Shown: positions 22,008 through 38,960 of the stretch, piece by piece
Position numbering within the stretch: position 1 is the stretch's first letter
How the letters are laid out: each line of letters starts with the position of its first letter
NCBI RefSeq assembly: GCF_030644365.1
Contig: NZ_CP130058.1
Coordinates: 186,001-250,000 of the forward strand
DNA from: Schaalia sp. HMT-172
GTDB lineage: Bacteria > Actinomycetota > Actinomycetes > Actinomycetales > Actinomycetaceae
Reading direction: 5' to 3'
DNA length: 64,000 nt
Program-made: the position numbers and the translations under genes
The notes under the pieces: generated by a model
What the model was told of the DNA's origin: nothing
Databases searched by the model: none
Seen by the model: only the letters and a program-made list of their open reading frames with translations

Positions 22008-23072
22008 ATGTCTGTCGAGTTCGTATCCGCCGCGCAGGCGGCGCAGGGGGTGGCGTGTGAGGCGCCGCTGCGGCTCGTCGACACCTTCGGGCGTGTAGCC
22101 CGCGACCTGCGCGTTTCTCTGACGGATCGCTGCAACCTGCGCTGCTCGTACTGTATGCCCCCCGAGGGCCTGGACTGGCTGCCCACCGAGGACACGTTGA
22201 CGGACCAGGAGGTCGTGCGCCTCGTGCGCGTCGGCGTCGAGCGGCTGGGGATTCGGCAGGTTCGCTTCACGGGTGGTGAGCCGCTCCTGCGCCGAGGCCT
22301 CGAGGGGATTATTGCCGAGTGTGCCCAGCTGCGCACCGACGAAGGAAAGAAGCCGGACCTGGCCCTGACGACGAATGCGCTGGGTTTGGCCAAGCGCGCC
22401 CAGGGCCTGAGGGATGCGGGCCTGGATCGCGTCAACATTTCGCTGGATTCCCTGGATGCCGAGCACTACGCGGCGATTACGCGCCGAGACCGCCTGGGAG
22501 ATGTGCTTGAGGGCATCGAAGCGGCCGCGCGCGCGGGCCTGACCCCGATCAAGGTCAACACCCTGGTGCTGCGCGGCATGAACGAGGCCGACCTGCCCGA
22601 CCTGGTCGACTACTGCCTGGATCGGGGGATCGAGCTGCGCGTCATCGAGCAGATGCCGATTGGGCCGGCGGACACCTGGGATCGTCAGAATATCCTGACG
22701 GCCGACGAGATCCTGCACATCATGGGCACCCGCCACACGTTGACCCCCGCGCAGCGAGAGGACCCGCATTCCCCGGCGGGTCGGTGGATTGTGGACGGAG
22801 ATCCGACCAAGAGGCTCGGAGTTATCGCCTCAGTGTCCGACCCCTTCTGCGGGGCGTGCGACCGCACCCGCCTGACCTCGGACGGAATGGTGCGATCCTG
22901 CCTGTTTTCCACGGAGGAGACCTCGCTGCGGGATCTGCTGCGCGGGGGTGGTTCCGATGCGCAGATTGCCGCGCGATGGGCCGACGCGATGTGGGCGAAG
23001 CCGGCCGCGCACGGCCTCAACATCGACGCTTTCGCGCGCCCGTCGCGCACGATGAGTCGTATTGGTGGGTAA
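22008..23072 (+). CDS. moaA: GTP 3',8-cyclase, molybdenum cofactor biosynthesis
   Basis: This 354-residue radical-SAM enzyme starts molybdopterin synthesis. The SAM-cluster motif is CNLRCSYC. The SAM-binding segment is VRFTGGEPLLRRG. The second 4Fe-4S cluster ligands are in FCGACDRTRLTSDGMVRSCLF. The essential C-terminal double glycine is RTMSRIGG. It is the first gene of the rightward molybdenum/nitrate block, 226 bp before narK. The leader is short and I see no Moco riboswitch. Confidence 0.97.
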   Translation: MSVEFVSAAQAAQGVACEAPLRLVDTFGRVARDLRVSLTDRCNLRCSYCMPPEGLDWLPTEDTLTDQEVVRLVRVGVERLGIRQVRFTGGEPLLRRGLEGIIAECAQLRTDEGKKPDLALTTNALGLAKRAQGLRDAGLDRVNISLDSLDAEHYAAITRRDRLGDVLEGIEAAARAGLTPIKVNTLVLRGMNEADLPDLVDYCLDRGIELRVIEQMPIGPADTWDRQNILTADEILHIMGTRHTLTPAQREDPHSPAGRWIVDGDPTKRLGVIASVSDPFCGACDRTRLTSDGMVRSCLFSTEETSLRDLLRGGGSDAQIAARWADAMWAKPAAHGLNIDAFARPSRTMSRIGG

Positions 23073-23087
23073 CTCCCCGCTAATTTC

Positions 23088-23110
23088 GTAACGTCGATGT
23101 TTTGTAACGG
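23088..23110. promoter_or_regulatory. candidate regulator site upstream of narK (paired GTAACG motifs)
   Basis: CGTAACGTCG and TTTTGTAACGG occur 16 bp apart in the moaA-narK gap. TTTTGTAAC-like sequences recur upstream of the MoaD-fusion regulator (31721) and of metN (9480). This is a candidate operator only, based on recurrence. Confidence 0.35.
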
Positions 23111-23297
23111 CGGTCGATAGCGGCGTTGACATCCTCCCCTCCGTGCTCGACACCCCTATTTTTCCTTGTTGTACCAAGGGTGATGCACGTCCTAAAAAGA
23201 TGGTGTGACGGAGGTAATTTGCCTTGGTAGCCTCCGTGTTAAAGAACGTCCGGCGTGCGCCCGCGCCCGGATGCCCCCTTCACGGATGAGGAGAGCC

Positions 23298-24650
23298 ATG
23301 AGCGCGACCGAACCCGCGGCCAAGAAGAGCCGCTACCTGCTCACTGACTGGAACCCCAACGACGAGTCCAAGTGGGACTCGAAGCTCGCGTGGCGCACGC
23401 TGTGGATCACGACCTACTCGCTGATCCTGGCCTTCTGCGTGTGGTTCCTGCCCAGCGCGATCGCGCCGAAGCTGACGCTTCTCGGCTTCGATCTGAACAA
23501 GTCGCAGCTGTACTGGCTGACCGCCCTCCCCGGCCTGGCCGCCGGCATCCTGCGCCTCATCTACATGTTCCTGCCCCCGCTCATCGGCACCCGCAAGCTC
23601 GTGGGCATCACCTCCCTGCTGTGCATCATCCCCATGGTCGGCTGGTTCTTCGCGGTCCAGGACAAGACGACCCCCTACTGGGTCCTGCTGACCCTCGCCT
23701 TCATGTGTGGCATCGGCGGCGGCGCGTTCTCCGGCTACATGTCCTCCACCGGCTACTTCTTCCCCAAGCGCCTAGCCGGGACGGCCCTCGGCCTGCAGGG
23801 CGGCATCGGCAACCTCGGCATGTCTGTCATCCAGCTGGTCGGCCCCATCCTCATGGGCTTCGGCCTCTTCGGCATGACCTGGCTGGCCCCGCAGACGCAG
23901 GTGAAAGGTGACCACGTCGGTGAGAGCATCTGGGTCTACAACGCCGCGGAGTTCTTCATTCCGTGGTGCCTCGTTGCCGCGATCCTCGCCTTCATCTGGC
24001 TGCGCGACGTGCCCGTCAAGGCCAACATCAAGCAGCAGCTGGACATCTTCTCCAACCCCAACACCTGGTACATGACCATCCTCTACGTCATGACCTTCGG
24101 CCTCTTCTCCGGCTTCTCCGCCGTCTTCGGCCTGCTCATCAACAACCAGTTCGGCCGCGAGTCCACCGTCGGCCTGCCCGTCCTGGGTGCGACCTTCGCC
24201 TTCCTCGGTCCTCTCATCGGCTCGATCATCCGCATGTCCTGGGGCATCTTCTGCGACCGCATGGGCGGCGCCATCTGGACCTTCATCTCCGGCGTCGGCA
24301 TGGCGATCACCCTGGGCGGCATCGCCTGGGTCCTGTACAACCCCACCGGTTGGACCGACTTCTACATCTTCATGGCGCTCATGCTCACCATGTTCCTGTT
24401 CTCCGGCTTCGGCAACGCCGGCACCTTCAAGCAGATGCCGATGATCATGCCGGCCCGCCAGGCCGGCGGCGCCATCGGCTTCACCTCCGCCATCGCATCC
24501 CTCGGCCCCTTCCTCGTCGGCGTCGCCCTCTCCGCGGTCGGCACCGGCGGCGCCTGGGCCTTCTTCCTCGGATGCGCCATCTTCTGCGCCCTGTGCGCGG
24601 TCCTGTGCTGGGTCATGTACGCGCGCAAGAACGCCCCGTTCCCCGGCTGA
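23298..24650 (+). CDS. narK: nitrate/nitrite transporter, MFS (NarK) family
   Basis: This 450-residue 12-TM transporter brings nitrate in and/or exports nitrite in exchange. NarK signatures are PGLAAGILRLIYMF with a substrate-site arginine, and the glycine-rich GIGGGAFSGYMSSTGYFFPKR. In the second half are the nitrate signature SGFGNAGTFKQMPMIMP and RQAGGAIGFTSAIASLG. MSATEPAAKKSRYLL at 23298 has GAGGAG upstream and is preferred to an open extension from 23205. It is followed 68 bp later by narG and is presumably co-transcribed. Confidence 0.95.
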   Translation: MSATEPAAKKSRYLLTDWNPNDESKWDSKLAWRTLWITTYSLILAFCVWFLPSAIAPKLTLLGFDLNKSQLYWLTALPGLAAGILRLIYMFLPPLIGTRKLVGITSLLCIIPMVGWFFAVQDKTTPYWVLLTLAFMCGIGGGAFSGYMSSTGYFFPKRLAGTALGLQGGIGNLGMSVIQLVGPILMGFGLFGMTWLAPQTQVKGDHVGESIWVYNAAEFFIPWCLVAAILAFIWLRDVPVKANIKQQLDIFSNPNTWYMTILYVMTFGLFSGFSAVFGLLINNQFGRESTVGLPVLGATFAFLGPLIGSIIRMSWGIFCDRMGGAIWTFISGVGMAITLGGIAWVLYNPTGWTDFYIFMALMLTMFLFSGFGNAGTFKQMPMIMPARQAGGAIGFTSAIASLGPFLVGVALSAVGTGGAWAFFLGCAIFCALCAVLCWVMYARKNAPFPG

Positions 24651-24718
24651 TCCACCCGGCACTGCGTGGTGCCAGCGGACCTGCCACTGCCTCGTCAATC
24701 GACTCTTAGGAGCACCCC

Positions 24719-27700
24719 ATGACGAATCTCGAATCCGATATGACCTTCCCGACCTACGACGGCGAGGTCAAGCCCGCGACCGGTGCGACCCTGTTCGCGC
24801 TCGGCTCGTGGCTGCGTCGCGGCAAGGCGTCTGCCGACGCGCGCCAGCTCTTCCTCGAGGGCGGACGCGACGGCGACTCCTTCTACCGCGACCGCTGGAG
24901 CTACGACAAGATCGTGCGCTCCACCCATGGCGTGAACTGCACGGGCTCGTGCTCGTGGAAGATCTTCGTCAAGGACGGCGTCATCACCTGGGAAACCCAG
25001 CAGACTGACTACCCGACTACCGGCGCGGACATGCCCGAGTACGAGCCCCGCGGCTGCCCGCGTGGCGCGGCGTTCTCGTGGTACGAGTACTCGCCGACCC
25101 GTATCAAGTACCCCTACGTGCGCGGCGTCCTGCTCGACATGTTCCGCGAGGCCAAGAAGCGCCTCGGGGATCCCGTCGACGCGTGGGCCGCGGTTGTCGA
25201 GGACCCGGAGAAGGCTCGCGCCTACAAGTCGCAGCGTGGCCGCGGCGGCATGGTCCGCGTGTCCTGGGAAGAGGCGATGGAGATCGTCGCCGCCGCCTAC
25301 GTGCACACGATCAAGCAGTACGGCCCCGACCGTATCGCCGGCTTCTCGGTCATCCCCGCCATGTCGATGATCTCCTACGGTGCGGGCGCCCGCTTCCACG
25401 AACTCATCGGCGGCACGATGCTGTCCTTCTATGACTGGTACGCGGACCTGCCCCCGGCCTCGCCGCAGGTCTTCGGCGACCAGACCGACGTGCCCGAGGC
25501 CGGCGACTGGTTCAACTCGCAGTACCTCATCATGTGGGGCACGAACCTGCCGCTGACCCGTACCCCCGACGCTCACTTCATGGCCGAGGCCCGATACCAC
25601 GGCCAGAAGGTCGTCGTCGTGTCCCCGGACTTCGCGGACAACACGAAGTTCGCGGACGACTGGTTGCGCGTCCAGCCCGGCACGGACGGCGCCCTGGCCC
25701 AGTCCATGGGCCACGTCATCCTCAAGGAATTCCACGTCGGCAAGCGCGAGCCCATGTTCCTGGACTACATGACGCGCTACACCGACTCCCCGTTCCTGGT
25801 GGAGATTAACGAGGTCGGCGAGGGCGCCCACGAGGGCATCGCCCCGACGACCCTGGTCCCGGGCAAGTTCCTGACGGCCGCGAAGATGCCCGCGGGCACG
25901 ACGACGCGCACCGAGAACAACGAGTTCCGTCCCCTCGTTATCGAGGCCGACGGCACGGTCAAGGACCCGGGCGGCACGCTCGCCGATCGCTTCGGTGAGG
26001 AGGGCGCCGGGCACTGGAACCTCAACCTGGACGGCGTCGAGCCCGTCATGTCCATCATGGACACCGACGAGTGGGAAGCCGTCGAGATCGCCCTGCCGCG
26101 CTTCGACCTGCCCGCGGCCCCCGGCCAGGCATCGGTCGGCGGCGGCTACGTGAAGCGCGGCGTGCCCGCGCGCCGCGTCAACGGCCGCCTCGTGACGACG
26201 GTGTACGACATCATGCTGGCCCACTACGCGGTTGAGCGCGAGGGTCTGCCGGGCCAGTGGCCCACCGACTACATGGACGCCTCCACGCCGGGCACCCCCG
26301 CGTGGCAGGAGGAGTTCACGTCGGTTCCCGCGGCCGCAGCCATCAAGATCGGCCGCGAGTTCGCGCAGAACGCGGTCGAAACCGAGGGCCGTTCCATGAT
26401 CCTCATGGGCGCCGGCACGAACCACTACTACCACTCCGACCAGATGTACCGGACGTTCCTGGCGCTCACGGAAATGTGTGGTACCCAGGGCCGCAACGGT
26501 GGCGGCTGGGCCCACTACGTGGGTCAGGAGAAGGTCCGCCCGATCATGGGTTGGGGCTCCTTCACCTTCGCCCTGGACTGGGCGCGCCCGCCGCGTCAGA
26601 TGATCTCCACCGGCTGGTACTACATGACCACCGACCAGTGGCGCTACGACGGGGCCGCGGCCTCGGCCATGGCGAATCCGATCAAGTCCTCGCACCTGGA
26701 CGGCAAGCAGCTGGTCGACACCCTCGTCGAGTCGGTTCAGCGCGGCTGGATGCCCTGCTACCCGACGTTCTCCAAGGGCTCGACCCAGCTGGGTCGCGAG
26801 GCCGCCGAGGCCGGCATGGCACCCGCGCAGTACGTGTCCCAGGAGCTGCGCGAGGGTCGCCTCCAGTTCGCGATCGAGGACCCGGACGCCCACCACAACG
26901 TTCCGAAGATCCTCGCGAACTGGCGTACCAACCTGCTCGGCTCCTCCGCGAAGGGCACTGAGTTCTTCCTGCGTCACATGCTGGGCACCGGAAACGAGGT
27001 CAACGCGCAGGAGCTGGAAGAGGGCAACCGCCCCGCGTCCGTCAACTGGCGCGACGCCCACCCCGGTAAGCTCGACCTCATGTGGGTCGCGGACTTCCGC
27101 AACACCTCGACGACGCTGCACTCTGACGTCGTGCTGCCCGCCGCCACGTGGTACGAGAAGCACGACCTGTCCTCCACGGACATGCACCCCTTCATGCACT
27201 GCTTCGACGAGGCCGTGAACCCGCCGTGGGAGGCGCGCACCGACTTCGAGGTGTTCCAGACCCTGGCTCGCCTCGTCGGCCGCATGGCCCCCGGTCACCT
27301 GGACACCCAGACGGACGTCGTGGCGGTCCCGCTGGGGCACGACTCCCCGGACGCCATGACCATGGCGAGCGGCGTCGTTCCCGAGCAGACGTGGACGCCC
27401 GGCAAGACCATGCCGAAGCTGGTCCCGATCGAGCGCGACTACACGCAGGTCGGCTACAAGTTCGACCGCATGGGTCCGCTCCTGCCCAAGGCCGGCCTGG
27501 CCTCCAAGGGCGTGGCGTACAACGTGCAGGAGGCCTACGAGCAGCTCGGCGACCTCAACGGCCGCGCCCCCATGGACGGCAACGCCGGAGAGGGCATGCC
27601 GCTGTGCGACACCGCGATCAAGGCGGCGAACATGGCGCTGCGCTTCTCGGGCACCACGAACGGCTCGCTGGCCGTTCAGGGCTTCCGCACGCTGGAAAAG

Positions 27701-28489
27701 CGAGTCGGTAACGAGATGGCGTTCCTGGCCGAAGGTGACGAAGAAAAGAAGATCACCTACCAGGACACCGTCCTGCAGCCGCGCAGCGTCATCACCAGCC
27801 CCGAGTGGTCGGGTTCCGAGCACGGCGGCCGACGCTACAGCGCCTTCGTCCAGAACGTCGAGTGCCGCAAGCCGTGGCACACGCTCACGGGCCGCCCGCA
27901 GTTCTACGTCGACCACGACTGGATGATGGACATGGGCGAGGCCCTGCCGATCTTCCGTCCGCCGCTTGACCTGGCGCACATCTACGGTGAGCGCCCCGTT
28001 GGCGACCACCGTCCCGGTCAGCCGGGTCAGGCCGAGGTCGCGGTGCGTTACCTGACGATCCACAACAAGTGGGCCATCCACTCCCAGTACTACGACAACC
28101 CGTACATGCTGACGCTGGGTCGTGGTGGCCAGACGGTGTGGATGAGCCCGGCCGATGCCGAGAAGATCGGCGTGCGCGACAACGAGTGGATCGAGGCGAA
28201 GAACCGTAACGGCACCGTGTCGGCTCGCGCCGTTGTCTCCCACCGCATCCCGGAGGGCACGGTGTTCATGCACCACGCCCAGGATCGCCAGATCAACACC
28301 CCGCTGAACGAGGGGTCCGGCAAGCGCGGCGGTACGCACAACTCGCTGACGCGAATCTTCATTAAGCCGACCCACCTGGCCGGCGGATACGCGCAGTTCG
28401 CCTACGCGTTCAACTACTACGGTCCCACCGGCAATAACCGCGACGAGGTCACGGTTATCCGCCGCCGCTCCCAGGAGGTGCAGTTCTGA
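24719..28489 (+). CDS. narG: respiratory nitrate reductase, alpha (molybdenum) subunit
   Basis: This is a 1256-residue cytoplasmic-side catalytic subunit carrying Mo-bisMGD and the FS0 4Fe-4S cluster. The cluster ligands are a His and three Cys (THGVNCTGSC, H70, C74, C78, then C113 in RGCPRG), with the NarG-specific histidine and spacing. The molybdenum-ligand aspartate is D239 in SFYDWYADLPP. There is no twin-arginine signal, as is usual for cytoplasm-facing NarG of Gram-positive type. TAGGAG precedes the ATG. TGATG couples it to narH. It uses quinol electrons from NarI via NarH to reduce nitrate to nitrite. Confidence 0.98.
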   Translation: MTNLESDMTFPTYDGEVKPATGATLFALGSWLRRGKASADARQLFLEGGRDGDSFYRDRWSYDKIVRSTHGVNCTGSCSWKIFVKDGVITWETQQTDYPTTGADMPEYEPRGCPRGAAFSWYEYSPTRIKYPYVRGVLLDMFREAKKRLGDPVDAWAAVVEDPEKARAYKSQRGRGGMVRVSWEEAMEIVAAAYVHTIKQYGPDRIAGFSVIPAMSMISYGAGARFHELIGGTMLSFYDWYADLPPASPQVFGDQTDVPEAGDWFNSQYLIMWGTNLPLTRTPDAHFMAEARYHGQKVVVVSPDFADNTKFADDWLRVQPGTDGALAQSMGHVILKEFHVGKREPMFLDYMTRYTDSPFLVEINEVGEGAHEGIAPTTLVPGKFLTAAKMPAGTTTRTENNEFRPLVIEADGTVKDPGGTLADRFGEEGAGHWNLNLDGVEPVMSIMDTDEWEAVEIALPRFDLPAAPGQASVGGGYVKRGVPARRVNGRLVTTVYDIMLAHYAVEREGLPGQWPTDYMDASTPGTPAWQEEFTSVPAAAAIKIGREFAQNAVETEGRSMILMGAGTNHYYHSDQMYRTFLALTEMCGTQGRNGGGWAHYVGQEKVRPIMGWGSFTFALDWARPPRQMISTGWYYMTTDQWRYDGAAASAMANPIKSSHLDGKQLVDTLVESVQRGWMPCYPTFSKGSTQLGREAAEAGMAPAQYVSQELREGRLQFAIEDPDAHHNVPKILANWRTNLLGSSAKGTEFFLRHMLGTGNEVNAQELEEGNRPASVNWRDAHPGKLDLMWVADFRNTSTTLHSDVVLPAATWYEKHDLSSTDMHPFMHCFDEAVNPPWEARTDFEVFQTLARLVGRMAPGHLDTQTDVVAVPLGHDSPDAMTMASGVVPEQTWTPGKTMPKLVPIERDYTQVGYKFDRMGPLLPKAGLASKGVAYNVQEAYEQLGDLNGRAPMDGNAGEGMPLCDTAIKAANMALRFSGTTNGSLAVQGFRTLEKRVGNEMAFLAEGDEEKKITYQDTVLQPRSVITSPEWSGSEHGGRRYSAFVQNVECRKPWHTLTGRPQFYVDHDWMMDMGEALPIFRPPLDLAHIYGERPVGDHRPGQPGQAEVAVRYLTIHNKWAIHSQYYDNPYMLTLGRGGQTVWMSPADAEKIGVRDNEWIEAKNRNGTVSARAVVSHRIPEGTVFMHHAQDRQINTPLNEGSGKRGGTHNSLTRIFIKPTHLAGGYAQFAYAFNYYGPTGNNRDEVTVIRRRSQEVQF

Positions 28490-30039
28490 TGAAGGTCATG
28501 GCTCAGATCGCGATGGTGATGAACCTCGACAAGTGCATCGGCTGCCACACCTGTTCGGTCACCTGTAAGCAGGTGTGGACGAACCGCGAGGGCACCGAGT
28601 ACATCTGGTTCAACAACGTCGAAACCCGTCCCGGCGTGGGCTACCCTCGCGGCTGGGAGGACCAGAAGAAGTGGAAGGGCGGCTGGAAGCGTACCGCCAC
28701 GGGCCGCCTCGTTCCCCGTCAGGGTGGACGCGTCGCCTCGCTCGCGAAGATCTTCGCGAACCCGACGCAGCCGACCATGAAGGACTACTACGAGCCGTGG
28801 ACGTACGAGTACGACAAGCTGCTCCAGGCGCCCGCGAACTCCCGGGCGATCCCGACGGCCCGCGCGAAGTCCACGATCACGGGCGAGCACATCGACAAGC
28901 CCGAGTGGGGCCCGAACTGGGATGATGACCTCGGCGGCTCTATGGAGACCCTGGATCAGGACCCGGTCCTGCACCAGATGAACCTCCAGGTCGCCAAGAC
29001 CATCGAGGACGCGTACATGTTCTACCTGCCTCGCATTTGCGAGCACTGCCTGAACCCGACCTGCGTGTCGGCGTGCCCCTCGGGCGCGATGTACAAGCGC
29101 ACCGAAGACGGCATCGTCCTGGTCGACCAGGATCAGTGCCGAGGCTGGCGCATGTGCGTGTCGGCCTGCCCCTACAAGAAGGTCTACTTCAACCACAACA
29201 CGGGCAAGGCCGAGAAGTGCACGCTGTGCTACCCGCGCCTCGAGGTCGGCCAGCCGACCATCTGCTCGGAGACCTGCGTGGGCCGCCTGCGCTACATGGG
29301 CGTGCTGCTCTACGACGCGGACCGCGTCACCTGGGCCGCCTCCCAGGAGGACGAGCGCGACCTGTACCGCGCCCAGCGCGAGATCCTGCTCGACCCGAAC
29401 GACCCGCAGGTGGTCGCCCAGGCTCAGGCCAACGGCGTTCCCCACTCGTGGATCAAGGCCGCCCAGCAGTCCCCGATCTGGAAGCTCATCACCGAGTACG
29501 AGGTCGCCCTGCCGCTGCACCCCGAGTTCCGCACCCTGCCGATGGTCTGGTACGTGCCGCCGCTGTCCCCGGTCGTCGACCAGGTGACCGCGTCCGGCAG
29601 CGACGGCGAGGACCACAGGGTCCTGCTGTCCGCCATCTCGCAGATGCGCATCCCGCTGGAGTACCTGGCCGGCCTGTTCACGGCCGGGGACACGGCTCCC
29701 GTGGAGCTGGCGCTGCGCCGCCTCGCCGCGATGCGCTCCTACATGCGCGACGTCTTCGTCGACAACCCGACGAACGAGGAGATCCCGGCCTCCGTGGGCA
29801 TGACCCCGGAGAAGGTCAAGGAGATGTACCGACTGCTGTCGATCGCCAAGTACGACGACCGCTTCGTCATCCCGACCGCCCACCCCGAGATGCCGCGCGG
29901 CATCAAGGAGCTTGAGGGCTGCCCGGTGTCCTACGACGTCGAGGCCTTCCACGGACTGGCCCCCGCCACGTCGAACCGCCCGATGGGTGGCTCGTCGCCG
30001 GAGGGACGCCAGATGCTCCCCCTTGAGGTCGTTCGATGA
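28489..30039 (+). CDS. narH: respiratory nitrate reductase, beta (Fe-S) subunit
   Basis: This 516-residue electron-transfer subunit has four cysteine clusters: CIGCHTCSVTC, CEHCLNPTCVSAC, CRGWRMCVSAC and CTLCYP with a later CSETC. In the third, tryptophan replaces one cysteine (CRGW), the hallmark of the 3Fe-4S centre of NarH. The ATG overlaps the narG stop (TGATG) and AGGAGG is 10 nt upstream. The stop overlaps the narJ ATG. It carries electrons from the NarI haems to NarG. Confidence 0.98.
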   Translation: MKVMAQIAMVMNLDKCIGCHTCSVTCKQVWTNREGTEYIWFNNVETRPGVGYPRGWEDQKKWKGGWKRTATGRLVPRQGGRVASLAKIFANPTQPTMKDYYEPWTYEYDKLLQAPANSRAIPTARAKSTITGEHIDKPEWGPNWDDDLGGSMETLDQDPVLHQMNLQVAKTIEDAYMFYLPRICEHCLNPTCVSACPSGAMYKRTEDGIVLVDQDQCRGWRMCVSACPYKKVYFNHNTGKAEKCTLCYPRLEVGQPTICSETCVGRLRYMGVLLYDADRVTWAASQEDERDLYRAQREILLDPNDPQVVAQAQANGVPHSWIKAAQQSPIWKLITEYEVALPLHPEFRTLPMVWYVPPLSPVVDQVTASGSDGEDHRVLLSAISQMRIPLEYLAGLFTAGDTAPVELALRRLAAMRSYMRDVFVDNPTNEEIPASVGMTPEKVKEMYRLLSIAKYDDRFVIPTAHPEMPRGIKELEGCPVSYDVEAFHGLAPATSNRPMGGSSPEGRQMLPLEVVR

Positions 30040-30725
30040 GTACTTTCGTCGGCATTCCGCGTATTCCTGCGGCCGCTCCGGAAACGGAGATGGATCCGCA
30101 GGACGCGCGCGGCGTGCGCATGGCGGTCTCGATCCTCCTGGACTACCCGGGGGATGACTTCGAGACCAAGCTGGACGCGGTCGAGGAGGCTCTGGCGGAC
30201 CTGCCGGAGCCGGCCTCGGCGTCCTTGGCCTCGTTCGTGAGCTACGCTCGCGCCGCGGGCCTGCGCGCCATGCAGACCACCTACGTGGAGACGTTTGACC
30301 AGCGCCGCCGTTGCGCGCTCGGCCTGACGTACTACACGCACGGCGACACCCGCGGCCGCGGCCAGGCCATCCTGGCCTTCAAGGAGGTCCTGCGCCGCGC
30401 CGGTTTCGAGATGGAGCGCGAGGAGCTGCCCGATCACCTGCCGGTGGTCCTGGAGTTCGCCGCCTTCGACGAGACCGGCACGGCCGAGGGCCTGCTGCGC
30501 TCCAACCGCGAGGGCATCGAAGTGATCCGCACGGCGCTGCGCGCCGCGGACTCTCCGTACGCGCCGCTGCTGGACGCGCTGGTCGCGACGCTGCCCGAGC
30601 CGGACGACAAGACCATTGAGGGCTTCCGCAAGCTCATTAGCCAGGGGCCGCCCACCGAGCTGGTGGGCGTGGGCGATCTGTCTGCCACGCCCTTCCCGAC
30701 TTCCGAAACAACGATGGGACGGTAA
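30036..30725 (+). CDS. narJ: nitrate reductase molybdenum cofactor assembly chaperone
   Basis: This 229-residue cytoplasmic chaperone binds apo-NarG and allows cofactor insertion. The NarJ/TorD-fold landmarks are LLDYPGDDFETKL, YVETFDQRRRCALGLTYYTHGDTRGRGQAI and LPDHLPVVLEFAA. The ATG overlaps narH (ATGA). The C-terminus is Ser/Thr/Pro-rich. Its position between narH and narI is the canonical order. Confidence 0.95.
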   Translation: MSTFVGIPRIPAAAPETEMDPQDARGVRMAVSILLDYPGDDFETKLDAVEEALADLPEPASASLASFVSYARAAGLRAMQTTYVETFDQRRRCALGLTYYTHGDTRGRGQAILAFKEVLRRAGFEMEREELPDHLPVVLEFAAFDETGTAEGLLRSNREGIEVIRTALRAADSPYAPLLDALVATLPEPDDKTIEGFRKLISQGPPTELVGVGDLSATPFPTSETTMGR

Positions 30726-30730
30726 CGTTC

Positions 30731-31507
30731 ATGGAATCCGCACTTTTGCATGCCGCGTCAGCACCTGCGACGCAGTCGCTGTCCTTCCTGGACATTGCCC
30801 TGTGGGTGATCCTGCCCTACGTGTCCTTCGCGATCCTCATCGTGGGCCTCGCGTGGCGCTACAAGACCGACCAGTACGGGTGGACGTCTCGTTCCTCGGA
30901 GTGGAATGAGCCGACCATCCTGCGCTGGGCCTCGCCGCTGTTCCACTTCGGCGTCCTCTTCGTGTTCATGGGCCACATCCTCGGCCTCGTGATCCCGAAG
31001 ACGTGGACCGAGGCGGCCGGTGTACCCGAGCACGTCTACCACCTGATGGCGACGATCCCCGGCACGATCGCCGGAATCATGACGATCGTCGGCCTCGCGC
31101 TGCTGATCTACCGCCGCCTGGTGTACAAGTCGGTGCGCGTGGCGACGACCCGCATGGATATCGTCACCTACGTCATGCTGACTATCCCGGTGCTCCTAGG
31201 CGGCGCGGCGACGCTGCTCAACCAGGTGCTCGGTGGACACGGGGGCTACGACTACCGCGAGACGATCTCCGTCTGGTTCCGCTCGATCTTCTATCTCCAC
31301 CCGCAGGCGCACCTGATGGTGGATGTGCCCCTCAGCTTCAAGCTGCACATCATCGCGGGCCTGCTGCTGTTCTGCATCTGGCCGTTCACACGCCTCGTGC
31401 ATGCGGTGAGCGCGCCGGTCGGCTACGTGGCGCGTCCCCCGGTGATCTACCGGTCTCGCGACGAGCGCCGCGAGCATCAGCTGACGCGCGGCGGCATGTC
31501 GGACTGA
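30731..31507 (+). CDS. narI: respiratory nitrate reductase, gamma (cytochrome b) subunit
   Basis: This 258-residue five-TM diheme subunit oxidises quinol. Histidines are in HFGVLFVFMGHILGL and later HPQAHLMVDVPLSFKLHIIAGLLLFCIWPFTRLVH, an arrangement expected for haem bP and bD ligation. It lies 5 bp after narJ with AACGTTC before the ATG. It is the last gene of narKGHJI. A GCCCGCCG/CGGCGGGC inverted repeat (31519-31560) follows, but it has a long loop and no T tract. Confidence 0.96.
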   Translation: MESALLHAASAPATQSLSFLDIALWVILPYVSFAILIVGLAWRYKTDQYGWTSRSSEWNEPTILRWASPLFHFGVLFVFMGHILGLVIPKTWTEAAGVPEHVYHLMATIPGTIAGIMTIVGLALLIYRRLVYKSVRVATTRMDIVTYVMLTIPVLLGGAATLLNQVLGGHGGYDYRETISVWFRSIFYLHPQAHLMVDVPLSFKLHIIAGLLLFCIWPFTRLVHAVSAPVGYVARPPVIYRSRDERREHQLTRGGMSD

Positions 31508-31806
31508 TCGATGGCCGTGCCCGCCGCGGTCCCTTGCTGAGAGGCGAGGCCTCGGCGGGCCGGGTGTCGGCGTGGGGGTGGGCGAAAGCTCGCCCCTCGC
31601 CGTATACCACGGGTCGGGTGTCGTCAGTGAGGTGCGCGCGTGCGGCCGCCCCTCCAAAAGCATCCGCGCAGTGGAATTGACCGTGCGCGCAAAGGCTTGT
31701 GCTGGTTAAAATAACACCGGTTTGTAAGTAACGTAACAAAGCTAATGCCGTTACGGAGACTCTCGTCAAGGGGGTTTCCGCAGATTAAGAGGGAGAGAGG
31801 ACGAAC
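31508..31806. promoter_or_regulatory. narI-to-regulator intergenic region
   Basis: This 299-bp gap has two parts. The first half is G+C-rich, with an inverted repeat possibly ending the nar transcript. The second half is A+T-rich (TTAAAATAACACC, 31706-31718) and carries an imperfect dyad TTTGTAAGTAACGTAACAAA (31721-31740) and GTTACGG (31750-31756). GAGGGAGAGAGG is the ribosome site. It is the likely promoter and autoregulatory region of the regulator-MoaD gene. Confidence 0.45.
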
Positions 31807-32802
31807 ATGACTGACACCTCCCATTCGCGGCCGCTTGCTGAAACGCTTGAGGCGATGGCCGCCCTGACGCCCGCTCAGCACGCTCTGTTGGAGCGCATTT
31901 CGCAGCACGTGACGCCCGTGACCGTGGCCGAGTTGGCCCAGGAGGCCGGCCTGCACGTGTCGAGCGTGCGTGAGACCCTCGAAGGTCTGTTTGCCGTGGG
32001 TCTGGTGGAAAAGCAGCAGCTTCCCTCCTCGGGGCGCGGGCGTCCCGCGCTCGGATACTCGACGACGACCCCCGCCGACCCCTCGTTTGCGGCTCAGATG
32101 CTCCAACAGCTGACCTCGTCGCTGCTGGCATGGCTGCGCGCGGACGCCGCCGACCCGGCCGCGTCGGTGCGTGAGATCGGCGCGCGGTGGGCGGATGCCG
32201 CCCTGGAGACGATGGCCGTGCCGGACCACAGCCACGGGATTGCGCGCCGGGCCATGCGCGACAACTTCAACATCGCGGGACACCTGGGCAAGGTGCGACT
32301 GTTCATGAACGCGATGGGCTTTGCGTCGGTACCCCACGAGTCCGATCAGATGGCCGTCGTCCTGACGGCCTGCCCGTTCACGGAGCCGGGAGCCCCGGAC
32401 GACCTGGCCCTCGAGCTGCGGCGCGGCATCGTCGAGCGTGTCTTCGAGCGCACGGCGACGGGGGTTGCGAGCTGGTCAGTGGAGGTCGATCCGATCAACC
32501 CGTTGCGCCTGACGGTCTTCCTGCGTCCGCTCAACGAGCCGAATCCGAAGCCGCTGTCGACGACGGTGCACTTCTTCGGCGGCGCGGCCGAGGCGGCGGG
32601 CGGTTACATGCGTGAGCTGCCCGCCTCGGAGACGCCCGCGACGCTCGGCGAGCTGGTCGCGCGCCTCGGCGCTGAGAACCCGGAGCTGGATCACATCCTG
32701 GAGGTGTCGAGCTTCCTGGTGAACGAGCGTTCCGCGCGCCTGGAGGCGGAGCTGATGCCCGGCGTGCGCATCGACGTGTTACCGCCCTTCGCCGGCGGGT
32801 GA
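31807..32802 (+). CDS. winged-helix transcriptional regulator fused to a C-terminal MoaD domain
   Basis: This 331-residue protein has three parts. Residues 15-85 form a winged helix (TPAQHALLERISQHVTPVTVAELAQEAGLHVSSVRETL region). Residues ~90-245 resemble the sensor part of ArsR/SufR-like regulators (AMGFASVPHESDQMAVVLTACPF). The C-terminal ~80 residues are a complete MoaD sulfur-carrier domain: STTVHFFGGAAEAAGG start, ATLGELVARLG, and the functional end IDVLPPFAGG with the terminal Gly-Gly that is adenylylated and thiocarboxylated. It is the only MoaD in the window and is followed by moaE and moeB, its expected partners. An internal GTG (in TTVHFF) lacks a ribosome site, so separate MoaD synthesis is not evident. 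Regulation of nar/moa genes is inferred. Confidence 0.85.
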   Translation: MTDTSHSRPLAETLEAMAALTPAQHALLERISQHVTPVTVAELAQEAGLHVSSVRETLEGLFAVGLVEKQQLPSSGRGRPALGYSTTTPADPSFAAQMLQQLTSSLLAWLRADAADPAASVREIGARWADAALETMAVPDHSHGIARRAMRDNFNIAGHLGKVRLFMNAMGFASVPHESDQMAVVLTACPFTEPGAPDDLALELRRGIVERVFERTATGVASWSVEVDPINPLRLTVFLRPLNEPNPKPLSTTVHFFGGAAEAAGGYMRELPASETPATLGELVARLGAENPELDHILEVSSFLVNERSARLEAELMPGVRIDVLPPFAGG

Positions 32803-32902
32803 GATGTCCACAGCATTTGTGCGGGTCGGTCAGGGTTTTCGCAAAATCCTGACCGTTTCCGTTTAAAATGGACGTAAGCATCTCCCGTTCCTGGAGGATC
32901 CC

Positions 32903-33322
32903 ATGTCAGCAGAGATTGCAACAGGTATTACTGACGACCCCCTCGACTCGAGCTCGCTGATCGATAGCGCACGCCGAGATACGTGTGGTGCCGTGGCGTC
33001 GTTCATCGGCGTCGTGCGCAACCACGACGGGGGAGAGAGCGTGGACGCGATCGAGTATTCGTCGCATCCTTCCTCGGCGCAGATATTGCGCGACATCGTC
33101 GCGGAGTTTAAGGATCGTCCCGGGGTGCATCGTATCGTCGCGTGGCACCGGGTGGGCCGCCTGGAGATCGGTGAGGATGCGATGGTGGTGGCGGTTGCCG
33201 CCGAGCATCGCGCACAGGCTTTCCGCGCTGTGGAGGGCATTGTTGAGGACGTGAAGGCGAAGCTCCCGATCTGGAAGAAGCAGGAATTGACTGACGGTTC
33301 GCACAACTGGTCGGGTCTGTGA
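32903..33322 (+). CDS. moaE: molybdopterin synthase catalytic subunit
   Basis: This 139-residue large subunit of MPT synthase has GAVASFIGVVRNHDGGESV (substrate loop), IEYSSHPSSAQ, HRVGRLEIGEDAMVVAVAAEHR and the catalytic-lysine segment VKAKLPIWKKQ. It acts with the thiocarboxylated MoaD, here supplied by the C-terminus of the preceding regulator fusion. CTGGAGGATCC precedes the ATG. It ends 1 nt before moeB begins, so the two are coupled. Confidence 0.96.
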   Translation: MSAEIATGITDDPLDSSSLIDSARRDTCGAVASFIGVVRNHDGGESVDAIEYSSHPSSAQILRDIVAEFKDRPGVHRIVAWHRVGRLEIGEDAMVVAVAAEHRAQAFRAVEGIVEDVKAKLPIWKKQELTDGSHNWSGL

Positions 33323-33323
33323 G

Positions 33324-34148
33324 ATGACGATCGGCGATCCTTATTCGCGTGAGGCGGCCGTCTCGGGCCGCAGCGTGGCGCTCCCGCTGATCAATGCGCC
33401 CGTCCCGTACGAGGCCGGGGATCCTGCGCTGGAGCGTTTCCGTCGCAATTGGCTGGTCTCCGGCATTGGCCAGGCGGGTCAGGCCCGCCTGGCCGCGGCG
33501 CGCGTGCTCGTCGTTGGCGCGGGCGGCCTTGGCTCGCCCGTCCTGCTGTACCTGACGGCTGCGGGCGTCGGGACGATCGGCATCTGCGACTCCGACGTGG
33601 TCGATACGTCGAACCTGCAGCGCCAGCTCCTGCACGGCGAGGCCGACGTGGGGGATCCGAAGCCTGATTCGGCGGTGCGTCACCTGAGCGCCCTCAATTC
33701 CGGCGTGCGCTTCGAGCGATACGGGCACGTGACCCGAGAGTGGCTGGAGGAGCACGGACGCGAGTGGGACCTGATCGTCGAGTGCACGGATAGCTTCGAT
33801 GCGAAGTACCTGGTGGCGGACTATTGCGCGGACTCAGGCGTCCCGTTGGTGTGGGGCACGGTCGTGTCGATGACCTTCCAGGTGAGCGTGTTCTGGTCTG
33901 CGGCGCCGGCCCCCGTGCCTTCGCTGACGTTGCGGAGCCTGCACCCGGTCAAGCCTGCTCCCGGGACGACCCCGGCCTCGCCGGAGGTTGGCGTGCTCGG
34001 TCCCGTGGTCGGTCAGGCGGGCACCGCGATGGCGACGGAGGCCATCAAGCTGCTGGTGGGCTTCGGCGAGCCGTTGATCGGCCGCGTCCTGACGGTGGAC
34101 GCGGCGACGCAGCGCGCCGACGTGCTGACCTTCGCGCCGTGGGACTGA
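33324..34148 (+). CDS. moeB: MoeB/ThiF-family adenylyltransferase (MoaD activation)
   Basis: This 274-residue E1-like enzyme adenylylates the MoaD C-terminus. Motifs are VLVVGAGGLGSPVLLYLTAAGVGTIGICD (nucleotide-binding), DTSNLQRQLLHGEADVG with the catalytic arginine, and LIVECTDSFDAKYLVADYC. Around residue 205, where many homologues have a cysteine before GVLGP, this protein has ASPEVGVLGP. The paired CxxC zinc motifs of E. coli MoeB are also absent. Such zinc-free ThiF members exist, so it is probably still active. It has no rhodanese domain. The mobA-like gene starts within its last codons. Confidence 0.9.
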   Translation: MTIGDPYSREAAVSGRSVALPLINAPVPYEAGDPALERFRRNWLVSGIGQAGQARLAAARVLVVGAGGLGSPVLLYLTAAGVGTIGICDSDVVDTSNLQRQLLHGEADVGDPKPDSAVRHLSALNSGVRFERYGHVTREWLEEHGREWDLIVECTDSFDAKYLVADYCADSGVPLVWGTVVSMTFQVSVFWSAAPAPVPSLTLRSLHPVKPAPGTTPASPEVGVLGPVVGQAGTAMATEAIKLLVGFGEPLIGRVLTVDAATQRADVLTFAPWD

Positions 34149-34777
34149 TCCCCGTGGGCGGGGGAGGGCCGCGCCCCGACCTGGCCGCGATCATCGTGGG
34201 CGGCGGCGGGGGAGAGCGCCTGGGCGGCGTGTCGAAGCCGGACCTCGTGTTCGGCGGCGTGCGCTTGATCGACCGTGTGTGCGGGGCCCTGCTGGAGGCG
34301 TGCGGCGCGGGGTGTGTGGCCGTCGTCCCGCCCGCCGTGCGTGTCCCCGATGGCGTCTTGCGTACCCTGGAGGATCCGCCGGGCGGCGGCCCGCTCGCAG
34401 GGATCGACGCTGGTCTGGCGGCCCTCGGTGCCCCCGCCGACGTGTGGGTCGTTGTCGTGTCGGTGGACTGTCCGGGCATCGTCGACGTCCTGGCGGCGCT
34501 GCTCGACGAGCCGCTGGGCGATCGGTGCGAGGGGCGCATCCTGCGCGGCGGCGTGCCCGAGCCCTTCGATCAGTACCTGATGGGCGTCTATCGCGTCGGT
34601 GCGCTGCGCCGCGTCATCGACGAGGCCGTGGCGCGGCGGGGGAACGTGCGCGGCATGGGGGTGCGGCGGGTGCTGCGCGCCCTCGCGCTCGAGCGGGTGG
34701 ACGTGAGCGCCGACGTGTGCAGGGACGTCGATACGCCCGAGGATGTGGCGTGGTGGGGTGCTCGCCTTTCCTCATGA
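34139..34777 (+). CDS. MobA-like molybdenum cofactor nucleotidyltransferase
   Basis: This 212-residue NTP-transferase-like protein has the sugar-nucleotide-transferase opening LAAIIVGGGGGERLGGVSKPDL (GG...RLGG..KP motif). It also has VVVVSVDCPGIVDVL, where MobA has its metal-binding aspartate, and a C-terminal DVDTPEDV motif. It is most likely MobA, which attaches GMP to molybdopterin to give the MGD form needed by NarG. MobB is not present. GTG at 34139 overlaps moeB by 10 nt; GTG at 34154 is the alternative. Neither has a clear Shine-Dalgarno, suggesting coupled re-initiation. The G-rich loop is longer than usual. Confidence 0.8.
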   Translation: MGLIPVGGGGPRPDLAAIIVGGGGGERLGGVSKPDLVFGGVRLIDRVCGALLEACGAGCVAVVPPAVRVPDGVLRTLEDPPGGGPLAGIDAGLAALGAPADVWVVVVSVDCPGIVDVLAALLDEPLGDRCEGRILRGGVPEPFDQYLMGVYRVGALRRVIDEAVARRGNVRGMGVRRVLRALALERVDVSADVCRDVDTPEDVAWWGARLSS

Positions 34778-34852
34778 TTTGTCGGTAATGCCTTGATGGG
34801 TATAGATTGAAACGGTAAGTGTCTAGTTTCCTCATCCTATCGAGGTGCACGC

Positions 34853-36910
34853 ATGAATCTTCGCCATGGGCTCCTGTGGCAACGGCTCGGACTGACCGTA
34901 TTGTCAGGAATCCTTGTTGCATCTATTGCTCCTGCTACTGCTGCCGCTCCGACAAGCGGTCAGGAATCGCACGGCGACGTCGCATCCGTCGACCTCGACC
35001 TGTCAAGGACGGATGCCGAGGCGGCCGGCCCTACCGCCTCGCAGGATCGCGCGGCCTCGGACGGCGCTGCCGCCTCCGACTCCATCGACGCCGCCGATTC
35101 CGCCGACGGTGCCACGGCCTCGTCCGAGGAGGAGAGCGCCGACGGCGTCGACGCGCAGATCTACACCTTCCCCGGAACGGGCGGCCCCACCCGCATCCAC
35201 GTCCTGACGACCACGGGTTCCGCGGACGCCATCCTGCTCGAATCGCGCGGCGTCTTCGCCATGATCGACGGCGCCGAGGGTGTCGGTGCCCCCGACGGCA
35301 CCGACCCGCGTTACCCCAAGCGCGAGGGAATCGTCGACGCGTCGTTCGGAGACACCGACTGGGTGCTCGGCTACATGGCCAACCACGGCGTCACCTCCTC
35401 CAACCTCGCGTTCTACCTGGGCACCCACGCCCACTCCGACCACATCGACAACGCGGACGAGATCATCAGGAAGTTCCACCCGAAAGTCATTCTCAGCCCC
35501 GAGTACTCCGACGAGTGGATCACGGACAAGTCCCGCCTGTGGGACAACCAGTGGATCTACGACAACATGATGGCGGCCGCGCGATGGGCGCAAGGCGCGT
35601 ACGGCGCGTCGATCGTGCAGAACATCAACGACTACAACACCCACATCACGCTGGGCGACATGGATGTTCAGATCATCCCCACCGACCCCGCCGAAAATTA
35701 CAAGCGGACCGGTGTGCGCGACGCGAACCTCATCGCGTACACCGCGAAGGTGAGCGCCTTCGGGCACTCCGCGTACCTGGCCGCCGACCTCGAAGCTGGC
35801 GGCGGCTACGAGGACCGCATCGCCCCGATCGTCGGCCACGTCGACATGCTCAAAGCTGGTCACCATGGCCTGCCGACCTCGAACACGGAATCATTCCTGA
35901 GCGCCCTGTCCCCATCGGTCATCGTCCAGACGGGTCCCGAATGGTATTCGCCCGATCGGCTCACGGCCTCCGTCGTTGACGGAACGACCGTGTGGGCACC
36001 CATGAATCAACTCTGGTCCTCCGGGCATATCTCGTCACTCATCGCGACCTTCGCGCCGTCGGGCATCTCCTACAACGATATCTCCGGCGCCTCGTGGGGC
36101 CACGAATACGGCGGTCGCACCCCGCGCGCCTGGTGGTTCGCGGGCGGGAGGCCCGCCGCCAAGACCGGCTGGTGGAAGGGTCTCAGCGGTCACTGGTACT
36201 ACTTTGCGGGCAAGCCCTCCGCCGAGGCCTCGGCGTGGATCAATGACGGCGGCCAGTGGTACTGGATGGACGCCACCGGAGCCATGATGACAGGGTGGAT
36301 CTACGACGGTAAGGCCTGGTATTACCTGGATTCCGCCGGGCACCCCTCGGGCAGTGGCTGGAGTTTCATCGACGGCTCGTGGTATTACCTGAGCGGCGGG
36401 CGCGTCGCCCTCGGGTGGCTCTACGACTCCGGCTCCTGGTATTACCTGGACGCGAGAACCGGCGCGATGGCCACCGGATGGACCCAGGTCGATGGTCAGT
36501 GGTATTTCCTGCGTTCCTCGGGTGCGATGGTCACCGGTTGGCTGAACGGCGGGAGCGCCTGGTACTACCTGGGCGGCAGTGGCGCCATGGCCACCGGCTG
36601 GCTCTACGACGGCGGCTCCTGGTACTACCTCGACCCGATGACCGGCGCGATGGCGACCGGCTGGGTGCAGGTGGACGGCAAGTGGTACTACCTGCGGTCC
36701 TCGGGTGCGATGGTCACCGGCTGGCTGAACGGCGGGAGCACCTGGTACTACCTGGACGGCAGCGGTGCCATGGCCACCGGCTGGCTCCTGGATCATGGGG
36801 CTTGGTACTACCTGGGTGACACGGGAGCCATGGTCACCGGCACGCGCGAGGTCGACGGTCGATCCTCCACCTTCGCCTCGTCTGGGCGCTGGGTCGGCTA
36901 CGCCTCCTGA
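34853..36910 (+). CDS. secreted Pce/CbpE-like metallo-beta-lactamase-fold hydrolase with cell-wall-binding repeats
   Basis: This 685-residue exported protein has a signal peptide at residues 1-32 (to ATAAAPTSG) and a Ser/Asp-rich linker to about 100. A metallo-beta-lactamase domain follows (about 105-385) with zinc motif THAHSDH and GHHG. The C-terminal half has about a dozen 20-residue aromatic repeats of the type GWxxxGxxWYYLxxSGAMxTG (choline-binding/CW_binding family). Segments such as FAMIDGAEGVGAPDGTDPRY, KREGI, SRLWDN, VQNI and LGDMDVQI line up with my recollection of pneumococcal Pce (CbpE), a teichoic-acid phosphorylcholine esterase. That suggests phosphorylcholine-bearing cell-wall polymers here (inference). 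It is monocistronic with A+T-rich upstream DNA. Confidence 0.85.
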   Translation: MNLRHGLLWQRLGLTVLSGILVASIAPATAAAPTSGQESHGDVASVDLDLSRTDAEAAGPTASQDRAASDGAAASDSIDAADSADGATASSEEESADGVDAQIYTFPGTGGPTRIHVLTTTGSADAILLESRGVFAMIDGAEGVGAPDGTDPRYPKREGIVDASFGDTDWVLGYMANHGVTSSNLAFYLGTHAHSDHIDNADEIIRKFHPKVILSPEYSDEWITDKSRLWDNQWIYDNMMAAARWAQGAYGASIVQNINDYNTHITLGDMDVQIIPTDPAENYKRTGVRDANLIAYTAKVSAFGHSAYLAADLEAGGGYEDRIAPIVGHVDMLKAGHHGLPTSNTESFLSALSPSVIVQTGPEWYSPDRLTASVVDGTTVWAPMNQLWSSGHISSLIATFAPSGISYNDISGASWGHEYGGRTPRAWWFAGGRPAAKTGWWKGLSGHWYYFAGKPSAEASAWINDGGQWYWMDATGAMMTGWIYDGKAWYYLDSAGHPSGSGWSFIDGSWYYLSGGRVALGWLYDSGSWYYLDARTGAMATGWTQVDGQWYFLRSSGAMVTGWLNGGSAWYYLGGSGAMATGWLYDGGSWYYLDPMTGAMATGWVQVDGKWYYLRSSGAMVTGWLNGGSTWYYLDGSGAMATGWLLDHGAWYYLGDTGAMVTGTREVDGRSSTFASSGRWVGYAS

Positions 36911-36936
36911 CCGAGGAGCCGGCGACCATCCTCACA

Positions 36937-36977
36937 AAGCGCCGCCCGCCGCGTATCGACGCAGGTGGGCGGCGCTT
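36937..36977. terminator. bidirectional hairpin after the Pce-like gene
   Basis: AAGCGCCGCCC (36937-36947) pairs with GGGCGGCGCTT (36967-36977), an 11-bp perfect stem with a 19-nt loop, 27 bp after the stop. A short TT follows. Confidence 0.7.
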
Positions 36978-37164
36978 GTCGGTTGTACTGTGGGGTAACC
37001 ATTCCTGCGCGAAAGGCCTCCCATGACGGCCCCTCGGGCAACCGCTACTACTTCAACGGCTCCGTCTCGGCCGTGGCGTGCGCGGCCTCGTGCTTGACCC
37101 GGCTGAGACCTCGTGTGGCTCCCCACGCCCCTCCGGCATGGTTCCCCACGCGCCTCCGGCATGG

Positions 37165-37297
37165 TTCCCCACAAATGTCGCATGCAATTTCTATGTCAAC
37201 CTTTCAAACTTTGAAATCGCATCGTTGAGATTCTGCGGTTTTCTCGATGCCTTATAAAAGTAAGGTAACCCAAATTGCATGCGACATTATTATGGGG
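37165..37297. repeat. family-A palindromic element, copy A4
   Basis: The left arm GTCGCATGCAATT (37177-37189) matches the right arm AATTGCATGCGAC (37273-37285) exactly. TTCCCCACAAAT precedes and ATTATTATGGGG follows. The interior keeps TTGAAATCGCATCGTTGAG and TAAGGTAACCCAAATT, relatives of A2. A 22-bp tandem repeat (CGCCTCCGGCATGGTTCCCC type) abuts the left end. It lies between convergent genes. Confidence 0.85.
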
Positions 37298-37306
37298 AGG
37301 AGGGGG

Positions 37307-37819
37307 TCAGCGGGGCTCGTCGAGCTGGTGGAAGATTGCGCCCAACAGAGGGGTGACCACCTCGAGAGTGTCGAGCGCGCCGCCGCGCGAACCCGGTGAG
37401 GAGATGATGAGCGCGCCCGAGGAGTCGCGCGCGGTCACGCCGACGACCTCGCGGGACAGGCCTGACAGGGGGGTGTTGGTCAGGCCGTGGGCGCGGATCT
37501 GCTCGGCGATGCCGGGGATTTCGACCTCGATGAGGGAACGGACCACCTCGGGCGCGTAGTTGCCCACGCCGAAGCCCGAGCCGCCCAGGACCAGGACGAA
37601 ACGGGCGCCGGCCTCGAGCGCGTCGCGGATCTCCGTCTCGAGGATGTCGGCGCTTTCGGGAATCGCGGCCATCGTCACCTGGCCCAGGCCCGCCGCGGTC
37701 AACGCGCCGACGCACGCGGGGGTCGCCCGGTCCTCCTTCGTGCCGCGCTGCACGCGGTCCGAATAAGCGATGATGTGGGCGTTGATCTGGCCGAGGTCGT
37801 AGTCGACGGGCTTGGGCAT
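37307..37819 (-). CDS. second MoaB/Mog-like molybdopterin-binding protein
   Basis: This 170-residue protein has the same fold as the 15.3-kb moaB but is divergent. The MPT loop reads VLVLGGSGFGVGNYAPEVV instead of the usual TTGGTG. LSGLSREVVGVTARDSSGALIISSPGSRGG is well conserved. N-terminal NAHIIAYSDRVQRGTKEDRA replaces the usual TVSD segment. It is transcribed toward the Pce-like gene and divergently from modA. It could be the dedicated Mog (adenylyltransferase) or a MoaB-like accessory; the altered loop makes the former less certain. Confidence 0.8.
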   Translation of the reverse strand: MPKPVDYDLGQINAHIIAYSDRVQRGTKEDRATPACVGALTAAGLGQVTMAAIPESADILETEIRDALEAGARFVLVLGGSGFGVGNYAPEVVRSLIEVEIPGIAEQIRAHGLTNTPLSGLSREVVGVTARDSSGALIISSPGSRGGALDTLEVVTPLLGAIFHQLDEPR

Positions 37820-38153
37820 GGGATCCTCCGTGTGTCTGCGGTGAGTACAAATGTGATCCTAGTCCCGCGGGTGCGGGTGCGAGTGGTCAAAGAGGTGAGG
37901 AATTAGTGCTCGCACCATCCGAGGTAAATGCTCGGGTGTGCGTGAGGTGCGCGCCTGGTGGGCGCTCGCCGGTCCCCCTGAAAGCAGCAAGCGCCCATTT
38001 AGTATGGACGTCTCCAGGTTAATTGAGGGGCCTGTTTATCCCAATATGCGGCCGCTTGTGGGCGCTCGCGACATGCTCGCTCCGGCCTGTTGCCCACCGT
38101 CGCTCCTCTTGTTAGATTAAGCACGTTCGATCCCCTCTCAAAAGGAGATGCCC
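37820..38153. promoter_or_regulatory. divergent intergenic region, mog-like / modA
   Basis: This 334-bp gap holds the promoters of both genes. TGGGCGCTCGC occurs twice (near 37958 and 38057), and AGCGCCCA near 37990 is inverted relative to them. A+T-rich GTTAATTGAGG lies at about 38019. No classical ModE palindrome was recognised. AAAGGAG at 38141-38147 is the modA ribosome site. Confidence 0.4.
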
Positions 38154-38951: not shown

Positions 38952-38960
38952 CATCGACCC

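Follow-up and report, generated by a model that had tools for sequence, protein, structure and literature searches.

An ArnR-like regulator with a C-terminal MoaD domain beside the nitrate reductase genes of Schaalia and relatives

Why would the sulfur carrier of molybdenum cofactor synthesis be joined to a DNA-binding protein, and could the joined protein serve in both capacities? The question is raised by a gene at 31807..32802 (forward strand) of the window, the 64,000-nucleotide stretch of Schaalia sp. HMT-172 DNA analyzed here. Comparison of sequences gives good support to a reading in which the product is bifunctional, serving the cell as its MoaD and also as a regulator that binds DNA. 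The whole of our reading goes further, in that the state of MoaD or its engagement with MoaE or MoeB would stand in place of an iron-sulfur/NO input, and on this we are evenly divided.

Architecture, neighbors, and spread of the fused gene

The original prediction held that a regulator and a complete MoaD ending in VLPPFAGG share one uninterrupted frame. Domain search with Pfam agreed, as the gene encodes 331 amino acids in a single frame with no internal stop, an ArnR-like regulator followed by MoaD. At the front, a winged-helix DNA-binding domain (residues 16-82, 31852..32052, forward strand) matched HVO_A0114, MarR_2, HTH_IclR, and MarR, all above their cut-offs. The MoaD domain, placed at residues 252-331 (32560..32799, forward strand) from Pfam and Foldseek, carries the VLPPFAGG tail at a free C-terminus; residues 254-331 matched ThiS/MoaD (PF02597) with an E-value of 4.6e-10 and a score of 40.3 bits (cut-off 22.5). 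Counting against our reading, the fused domain scored 24.6 bits with the NCBIfam moaD equivalog TIGR01682, under the cut-off of 66.15. Taken from sequence, a DNA-binding regulator half and MoaD are on one polypeptide.

An AlphaFold2 model from a nine-row alignment (mean pLDDT 83.9) begins with a winged helix and two long helices; an alpha/beta middle domain follows, joined by a linker to a terminal domain that is beta-grasp-like. The two long helices (residues 94-113 and 117-135, 32086..32211, forward strand) probably form a dimerization region, by analogy with the role described for ArnR (PMC12343034). The former sensor domain follows at residues about 148-241 (32248..32529, forward strand). 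Confidence was low in the linker near 242-251, and the last three residues had pLDDT < 50. When the model was searched with Foldseek, the MoaD part resembled molybdopterin synthase small subunits (6jc0_A and 1fm0_D) and the MoaD of a MoeB-MoaD complex (1jwb_D), with target TM scores of 0.83-0.86. The N-terminal part resembled AbfR2, with weaker matches to SmtB and MarR structures, and the middle domain weakly matched the TRAPP subunit 3cue_B (E 1.0e-3, target TM 0.52).

The gene lies within a run of nar and moa genes, all on the forward strand. Upstream are moaA (22008..23072, TIGR02666 above cut-off), a gene of uncertain start at 23205..24650 that we take to be narK, and genes at 24719..31507 that are presumably narG, narH, narJ, and narI, these names coming from translations together with synteny and conserved order rather than from a family-library scan. 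Downstream are moaE (32903-33322, Pfam E 3.3e-33, single copy in the genome), a moeB-like gene for a ThiF-family adenylyltransferase (33324-34148, Pfam, with no rhodanese domain match), and a mobA-like NTP transferase gene of uncertain start (34148..34777, Pfam). In all 16 loci compared, narK, G, H, J, and I were upstream (the narK match being partial in L083) and the fusion was the next gene match past narI. In 14 of the 16, moaE came next within about 100 nt; it was 1.8 and 7.4 kb off in L076 and L077. The tight linkage to nar and moaE, with the moeB-like gene then following, was as predicted.

The gap between the fusion gene and moaE is 100 nt in the window and only 0-13 nt in L079-L082 and L085. 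A predicted hairpin at 32827..32855 (forward strand) was seen in nine aligned loci of the S. odontolytica group, in which two-sided changes affected 3 of the 29 pairs predicted over the entire gap. The hairpin has no long T run and matched no Rfam family, and an Rfam scan of 22000-39000 gave nothing at gathering score. Possibly it is an attenuator or a protein site.

To what extent is this architecture shared? Of 151 genomes of the family, 95 gave some match and 13 matched over essentially the entire protein; a second scan, in which each species was represented by a single genome, gave 17 loci, 16 of them full-length fusions. Nine contigs of the second set equal contigs of the first in length, and merging the sets on that basis left 20 distinct fused copies (the window, L070-L085, L007, L008, and L013), every one a single open frame. 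Hosts include Schaalia odontolytica, S. georgiae, S. cardiffensis, Pauljensenia hongkongensis, Actinobaculum sp., and Peptidiphaga gingivicola, as well as Propionibacterium cyclohexanicum, of another order (48% identity, residues 3-331). Among 394 genomes taken across the class, a full-length match occurred in the window's own genome only. A frameshift separating the domains, which the original prediction had named as a way it could fail, is excluded by the 20 distinct open-frame copies, as is an assembly artifact, and the fused copy is not degenerate in relatives.

In a tree of MoaD domains, the 20 fused domains fell on one side of a branch with support of 99/97, against 10 stand-alone rows. 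In the regulator tree, the 20 fused copies and the S. vaccimaxillae regulator L086 fell together with support of 100/100, against 18 stand-alone rows. (L093, a near-copy of L092, was omitted from the tree and from the cysteine count, and L086 was counted apart.) The simplest reading of these sequences is a single origin of the fusion.

Three observations concern particular hosts. P. cyclohexanicum, a member of another taxonomic order, has the fused nar-moa cassette (L083, 78-11391), probably through transfer. L072 and L074, recorded as Xylanimonas cellulosilytica 352_XCEL and Sanguibacter keddieii 250_SKED, cluster with S. odontolytica in the tree, and these names look wrong. G132, which shares the window's genus code, had no narG, MoaE, MoaD, or regulator match, and the whole module seems to have been lost there.

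The fused domain as the probable MoaD of the cell

The absence of another MoaD, first noted for the window, extends to the genome. Neither Pfam nor a profile built from 15 MoaD domains (E up to 5) found a second MoaD or ThiS in the window's complete genome, one contig of 2,533,704 bases; some of the other fused assemblies are drafts. Pfam alone was insufficient, since it missed the MoaD of G125 and G146, both of which the profile recovered. A hidden second MoaD was thus rejected for the window's genome. With the profile, 17 of the 20 genomes that have the fusion yielded it as their sole MoaD (the window's, eight others of its genus, G067, P. cyclohexanicum, and those of L070, L076, L078, L079, L082, and L084), and extra weak matches were found in G066 and G150 only (E 0.23 and 0.34). 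A second moaD and a second moaE were present in G063, G004, and G039, which we count against our reading. There was one MoaE each in the 10 fused genomes of codes g1 and g10. The tail VLPPF[AS]GG, with its C-terminal Gly-Gly, was found in all 20 fused copies.

If NarG makes nitrite, nitrite production requires molybdenum cofactor. We compared these genomes with published nitrite production: S. odontolytica ATCC 17929 is graded ++++, a strong producer (PMC12168414), and a list of nitrite producers includes isolates under the names A. georgiae and A. hongkongensis (PMC7538880). For all three species, the fusion was the only MoaD found in the genomes that we searched (G085, G102, the source of L077, and G546, the source of L076), the strains being different from those assayed for nitrite. 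Because searches for a second MoaD came up empty and nitrite is formed by species that carry the gene, the fused MoaD most likely works in molybdenum cofactor synthesis.

A carrier could also be supplied if a protease freed MoaD from a precursor, leaving regulator and carrier to act apart. MoaX of M. tuberculosis is reported to require cutting between Gly82 and Ser83 to work (PMC4326299), and the low-confidence linker modeled at 242-251 is consistent with such processing. However, the cut in MoaX frees a Gly-Gly tail, whereas the tail of the fusion is already the C-terminus. Nor is an internal start a general source of free MoaD: counting ATG, GTG, and TTG only, and leaving out L013, an in-frame start was present at window residues 226-256 in 15 of 19 fused copies and absent from four (L071, L072, L074, and L075). 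We consider a processed precursor quite improbable.

The iron-sulfur ligands and the DNA-binding half

ArnR of Corynebacterium glutamicum is described as a [4Fe-4S], NO-responsive repressor of narKGHJI and hmp (PMC12343034). In the same report, the likely ligands are Cys179, Cys193, and Cys223, single Cys-to-Ala variants failed in cluster acquisition or DNA binding, and the sensor domain resembles TRAPPC3. The front part of the fused protein is homologous to ArnR-like three-cysteine regulators. We read the corresponding columns (Cys1, Cys2, and Cys3) in each copy, together with the column three residues after Cys2, which is probably that of a His near the cluster.

No fused copy had all three cysteines. 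Cys2 was lost in 20/20, being Leu in 18 and Phe in 2, and the His column held Arg in all 20 and in L086. Cys3 was lost in 19/20, and Cys1 was kept in 19/20. The window has one of the three, C189, with L202, R205, and L235 in the Cys2, His, and Cys3 columns; L083 keeps two cysteines and L013 none. Among 18 stand-alone relatives from the family (L092 and 17 that were among the best 30 matches of the family search), the full set of three cysteines and the His is retained in 13. The other five keep 2, 2, 1, 0, and 0 cysteines, so ligand loss is not confined to fused copies, which counts against our reading. In the wider class, 125 of the 394 genomes had a regulator match, and all three cysteines and the His were present in 29/29 loci read among the best matches, the window's aside, a figure favored by the profile used (13 family sequences, 12 with all three cysteines).

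Spacing links the three-cysteine relatives to ArnR, which we compared through published residue positions. Cys1 and Cys2 are 14 apart in 10/13, as are Cys179 and Cys193 of ArnR, and Cys2 and Cys3 are 32 apart in 13/13 versus 30 in ArnR. The fused proteins are thus unlikely to hold a cluster of the ArnR type, although other residues could serve as ligands, and since the ligand set is broken in all 20 copies, a change of input is plausible. The trees allow ligand loss to have come either before or after fusion.

One candidate for a new input is a small ligand bound by R205 and R206 independently of MoaD, for example an anion (nitrate, molybdate, or a pterin phosphate). R205-R206-G207 is invariant in the nine-row alignment (A1), and the Arg that fills the His column throughout the fused copies also occurs in L086. 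Since an invariant Arg could instead be structural, we regard this explanation as improbable.

Does the regulator half still act on DNA? Among 7 of the 20 copies, all from the S. odontolytica group and without L013, dN/dS was lowest in the helices behind the winged helix (0.030) and in the winged helix itself (0.054); the sensor domain had 0.136 and MoaD 0.120. These are rough ratios, as dS was about 1. H50, S52-T57, and G76-A81, in the recognition helix and wing, are invariant in nine diverse copies (alignment A1). By these measures, purifying selection on the winged helix is strong. Because of the low winged-helix dN/dS and the invariant recognition-helix and wing residues, the fused protein is likely to bind DNA still, beside nar. 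Decay of the winged helix finds no support in the seven copies.

Its binding sites are less clear. An AT-rich candidate operator, TTTGTAAGTAACGTAACA (31721..31738, forward strand), lies upstream of the fusion gene and is conserved within the S. odontolytica group. A matrix built from seven such sites had no convincing match before narK, near 23088, which counts against our reading. The sole high-scoring match was the own-promoter site itself (37.7), one of the matrix's sources; the next, at 37253 (16.2) and 49085 (11.4), are not before narK. An operator shared by the fusion promoter and narK thus gained no support. Inverted repeats of 7 or more numbered none in 31640-31806 and one in 23060-23260. 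A sigma-70 consensus scan of 31400-33400 found no promoter, which also counts against our reading. A globin search for hmp was empty in 21/21 genomes, fused and not, and likewise in the C. glutamicum control, despite the repression of hmp reported there.

Stand-alone regulators show the family in other settings. Among eight stretches carrying them (L087-L093 and L097), four have nar genes (L087, L088, L092, and L093), with the regulator past narI and moaD a separate gene elsewhere in the cluster. The other four had no nar gene within the 17-20 kb viewed, and in L089-L091 the regulator sits among moa genes. With no nar gene seen in half of the stretches and three regulators among moa genes, nar is not the only setting in which stand-alone members occur.

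Two genomes separate the parts of the module. In S. vaccimaxillae, the L086 gene (9998-10738) encodes a regulator of the fused type that stops where MoaD would start and has Leu, Arg, and Leu in the Cys2, His, and Cys3 columns, with 0/3 cysteines. The genome had no NarG, no MoaE above cut-off, and no MoaD. Thus, the regulator half can persist without MoaD input, a point against our reading. The tree permits either that L086 lost MoaD or that MoaD never joined it: fused copies forming one clade without L086 are allowed (p-AU 0.462), as is L086 inside the Schaalia group (p-AU 0.191). Its neighbors are presumably tadA, upp, and metQ. In the window, the counterparts of these three genes occupy 11.5-14.6 kb, across the moa/nar region from the fusion gene. 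This position and the missing NarG, MoaE, and MoaD suggest loss.

The second genome, G146, has the window's genus code. Its narGHJI (L093, 2093-11436) are 96-98% identical to the window's. The regulator of G146 is a distant one (28%) that stands alone and has three cysteines, and its moaD is a gene apart; this combination suggests that the nar genes were replaced by transfer. Since near-identical narGHJI are paired here with a three-cysteine regulator, the nar genes do not dictate the fused design.

L086 also bears on the explanation that MoaD is a passenger, tethered for co-expression or stoichiometry only and acting independently, with the regulator having another input or none. A fused-type regulator without MoaD, in a genome that gave no NarG, MoaE, or MoaD, speaks for a passenger; the modeled linker is perhaps flexible, and ThiS/MoaD fusions to other partners have been described (PMC1779556 and PMC11237513). 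Against a passenger stand the loss of Cys2 and His from every fused copy, though the tree allows either order of ligand loss and fusion, and the conservation of both domains across distant hosts, one of them from another taxonomic order. We rate the passenger fusion fairly unlikely.

A possible mechanism and its known counterparts

How might MoaD inform a bifunctional regulator? The fused MoaD would be adenylylated by MoeB and thiocarboxylated, and its tail would be inserted into MoaE, so that the domain shifts between MoeB, a sulfur donor, and MoaE. Because MoaD must leave one partner for another, engagement by MoaE or MoeB could alter DNA binding by the regulator dimer. Transcription of nar and moa would then track the assembly of, or demand for, molybdopterin synthase rather than NO. 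We are less sure of this sensing step, which we infer. In its strict form, the proposal is that tail adenylylation, thiocarboxylation, or MoaE occupancy sets the expression of nitrate respiration and that MoaD replaced an iron-sulfur NO sensor in one ancestral lineage; this we regard as possible, if doubtful.

Were the strict form true, one polypeptide would join cofactor supply to expression of the enzyme that needs it. To our knowledge, little is understood, beyond a few model bacteria, of how the synthesis of molybdoenzymes is matched to the supply of their cofactor. If MoaD engagement does control DNA binding, this would be the first regulator known to us that a ubiquitin-like sulfur carrier drives. 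The family provides a natural experiment, with and without the cluster ligand set, and once (L093 versus the window) beside near-identical narGHJI. In tongue coating and plaque, bacteria bearing the fusion count among the chief producers of nitrite (PMC7538880).

Within the literature searched, from which subscription papers were largely outside, the regulator-MoaD fusion was not found in print. No paper had both ArnR and MoaD, none had both "MoaD domain" and "DNA-binding domain," and none concerned such a fusion by its title and the start of its abstract. A 2006 survey of ThiS/MoaD architectures describes fusions to ThiG, MoaE, and sulfite reductase, and HTH is absent from its text, figures aside (PMC1779556). 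Fusions of MoaD with MoaE and MoeB are described in a 2024 survey of archaeal fusions (PMC11237513).

The protein resembles ArnR in the position of its gene after the nar operon, its N-terminal winged helix, its helix region, and the sensor domain behind it, which is C-terminal in ArnR; the TRAPP-like match of that domain in the fusion is weak. Unlike ArnR, fused copies lack Cys2 and His (20/20) and Cys3 (19/20) and end in MoaD. MoaD itself is likewise a ThiS-family beta-grasp protein with a C-terminal Gly-Gly, and moaE and a moeB-like gene adjoin the fusion; however, MoaD is usually free and about 80 amino acids long, whereas here it is the C-terminal domain of a regulator. As in MoaX, the MoaD-MoaE fusion of M. 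tuberculosis (PMC4326299), MoaD is part of a larger polypeptide. In MoaX, MoaD is N-terminal and cleaved, while here it is C-terminal with a free tail, its partner is a regulator, and moaE is a separate gene.

A demand-sensing logic is known from BirA, a cofactor enzyme that doubles as its own repressor. BirA is described as both biotin ligase and repressor of biotin synthesis (PMC4877710 and PMC4861984). Like BirA, the fusion joins a winged helix to a domain of a cofactor pathway, and the logic that we propose for it is one of sensing demand. The enzyme part of BirA is unrelated to MoaD, so that the analogy is one of function and not of homology.
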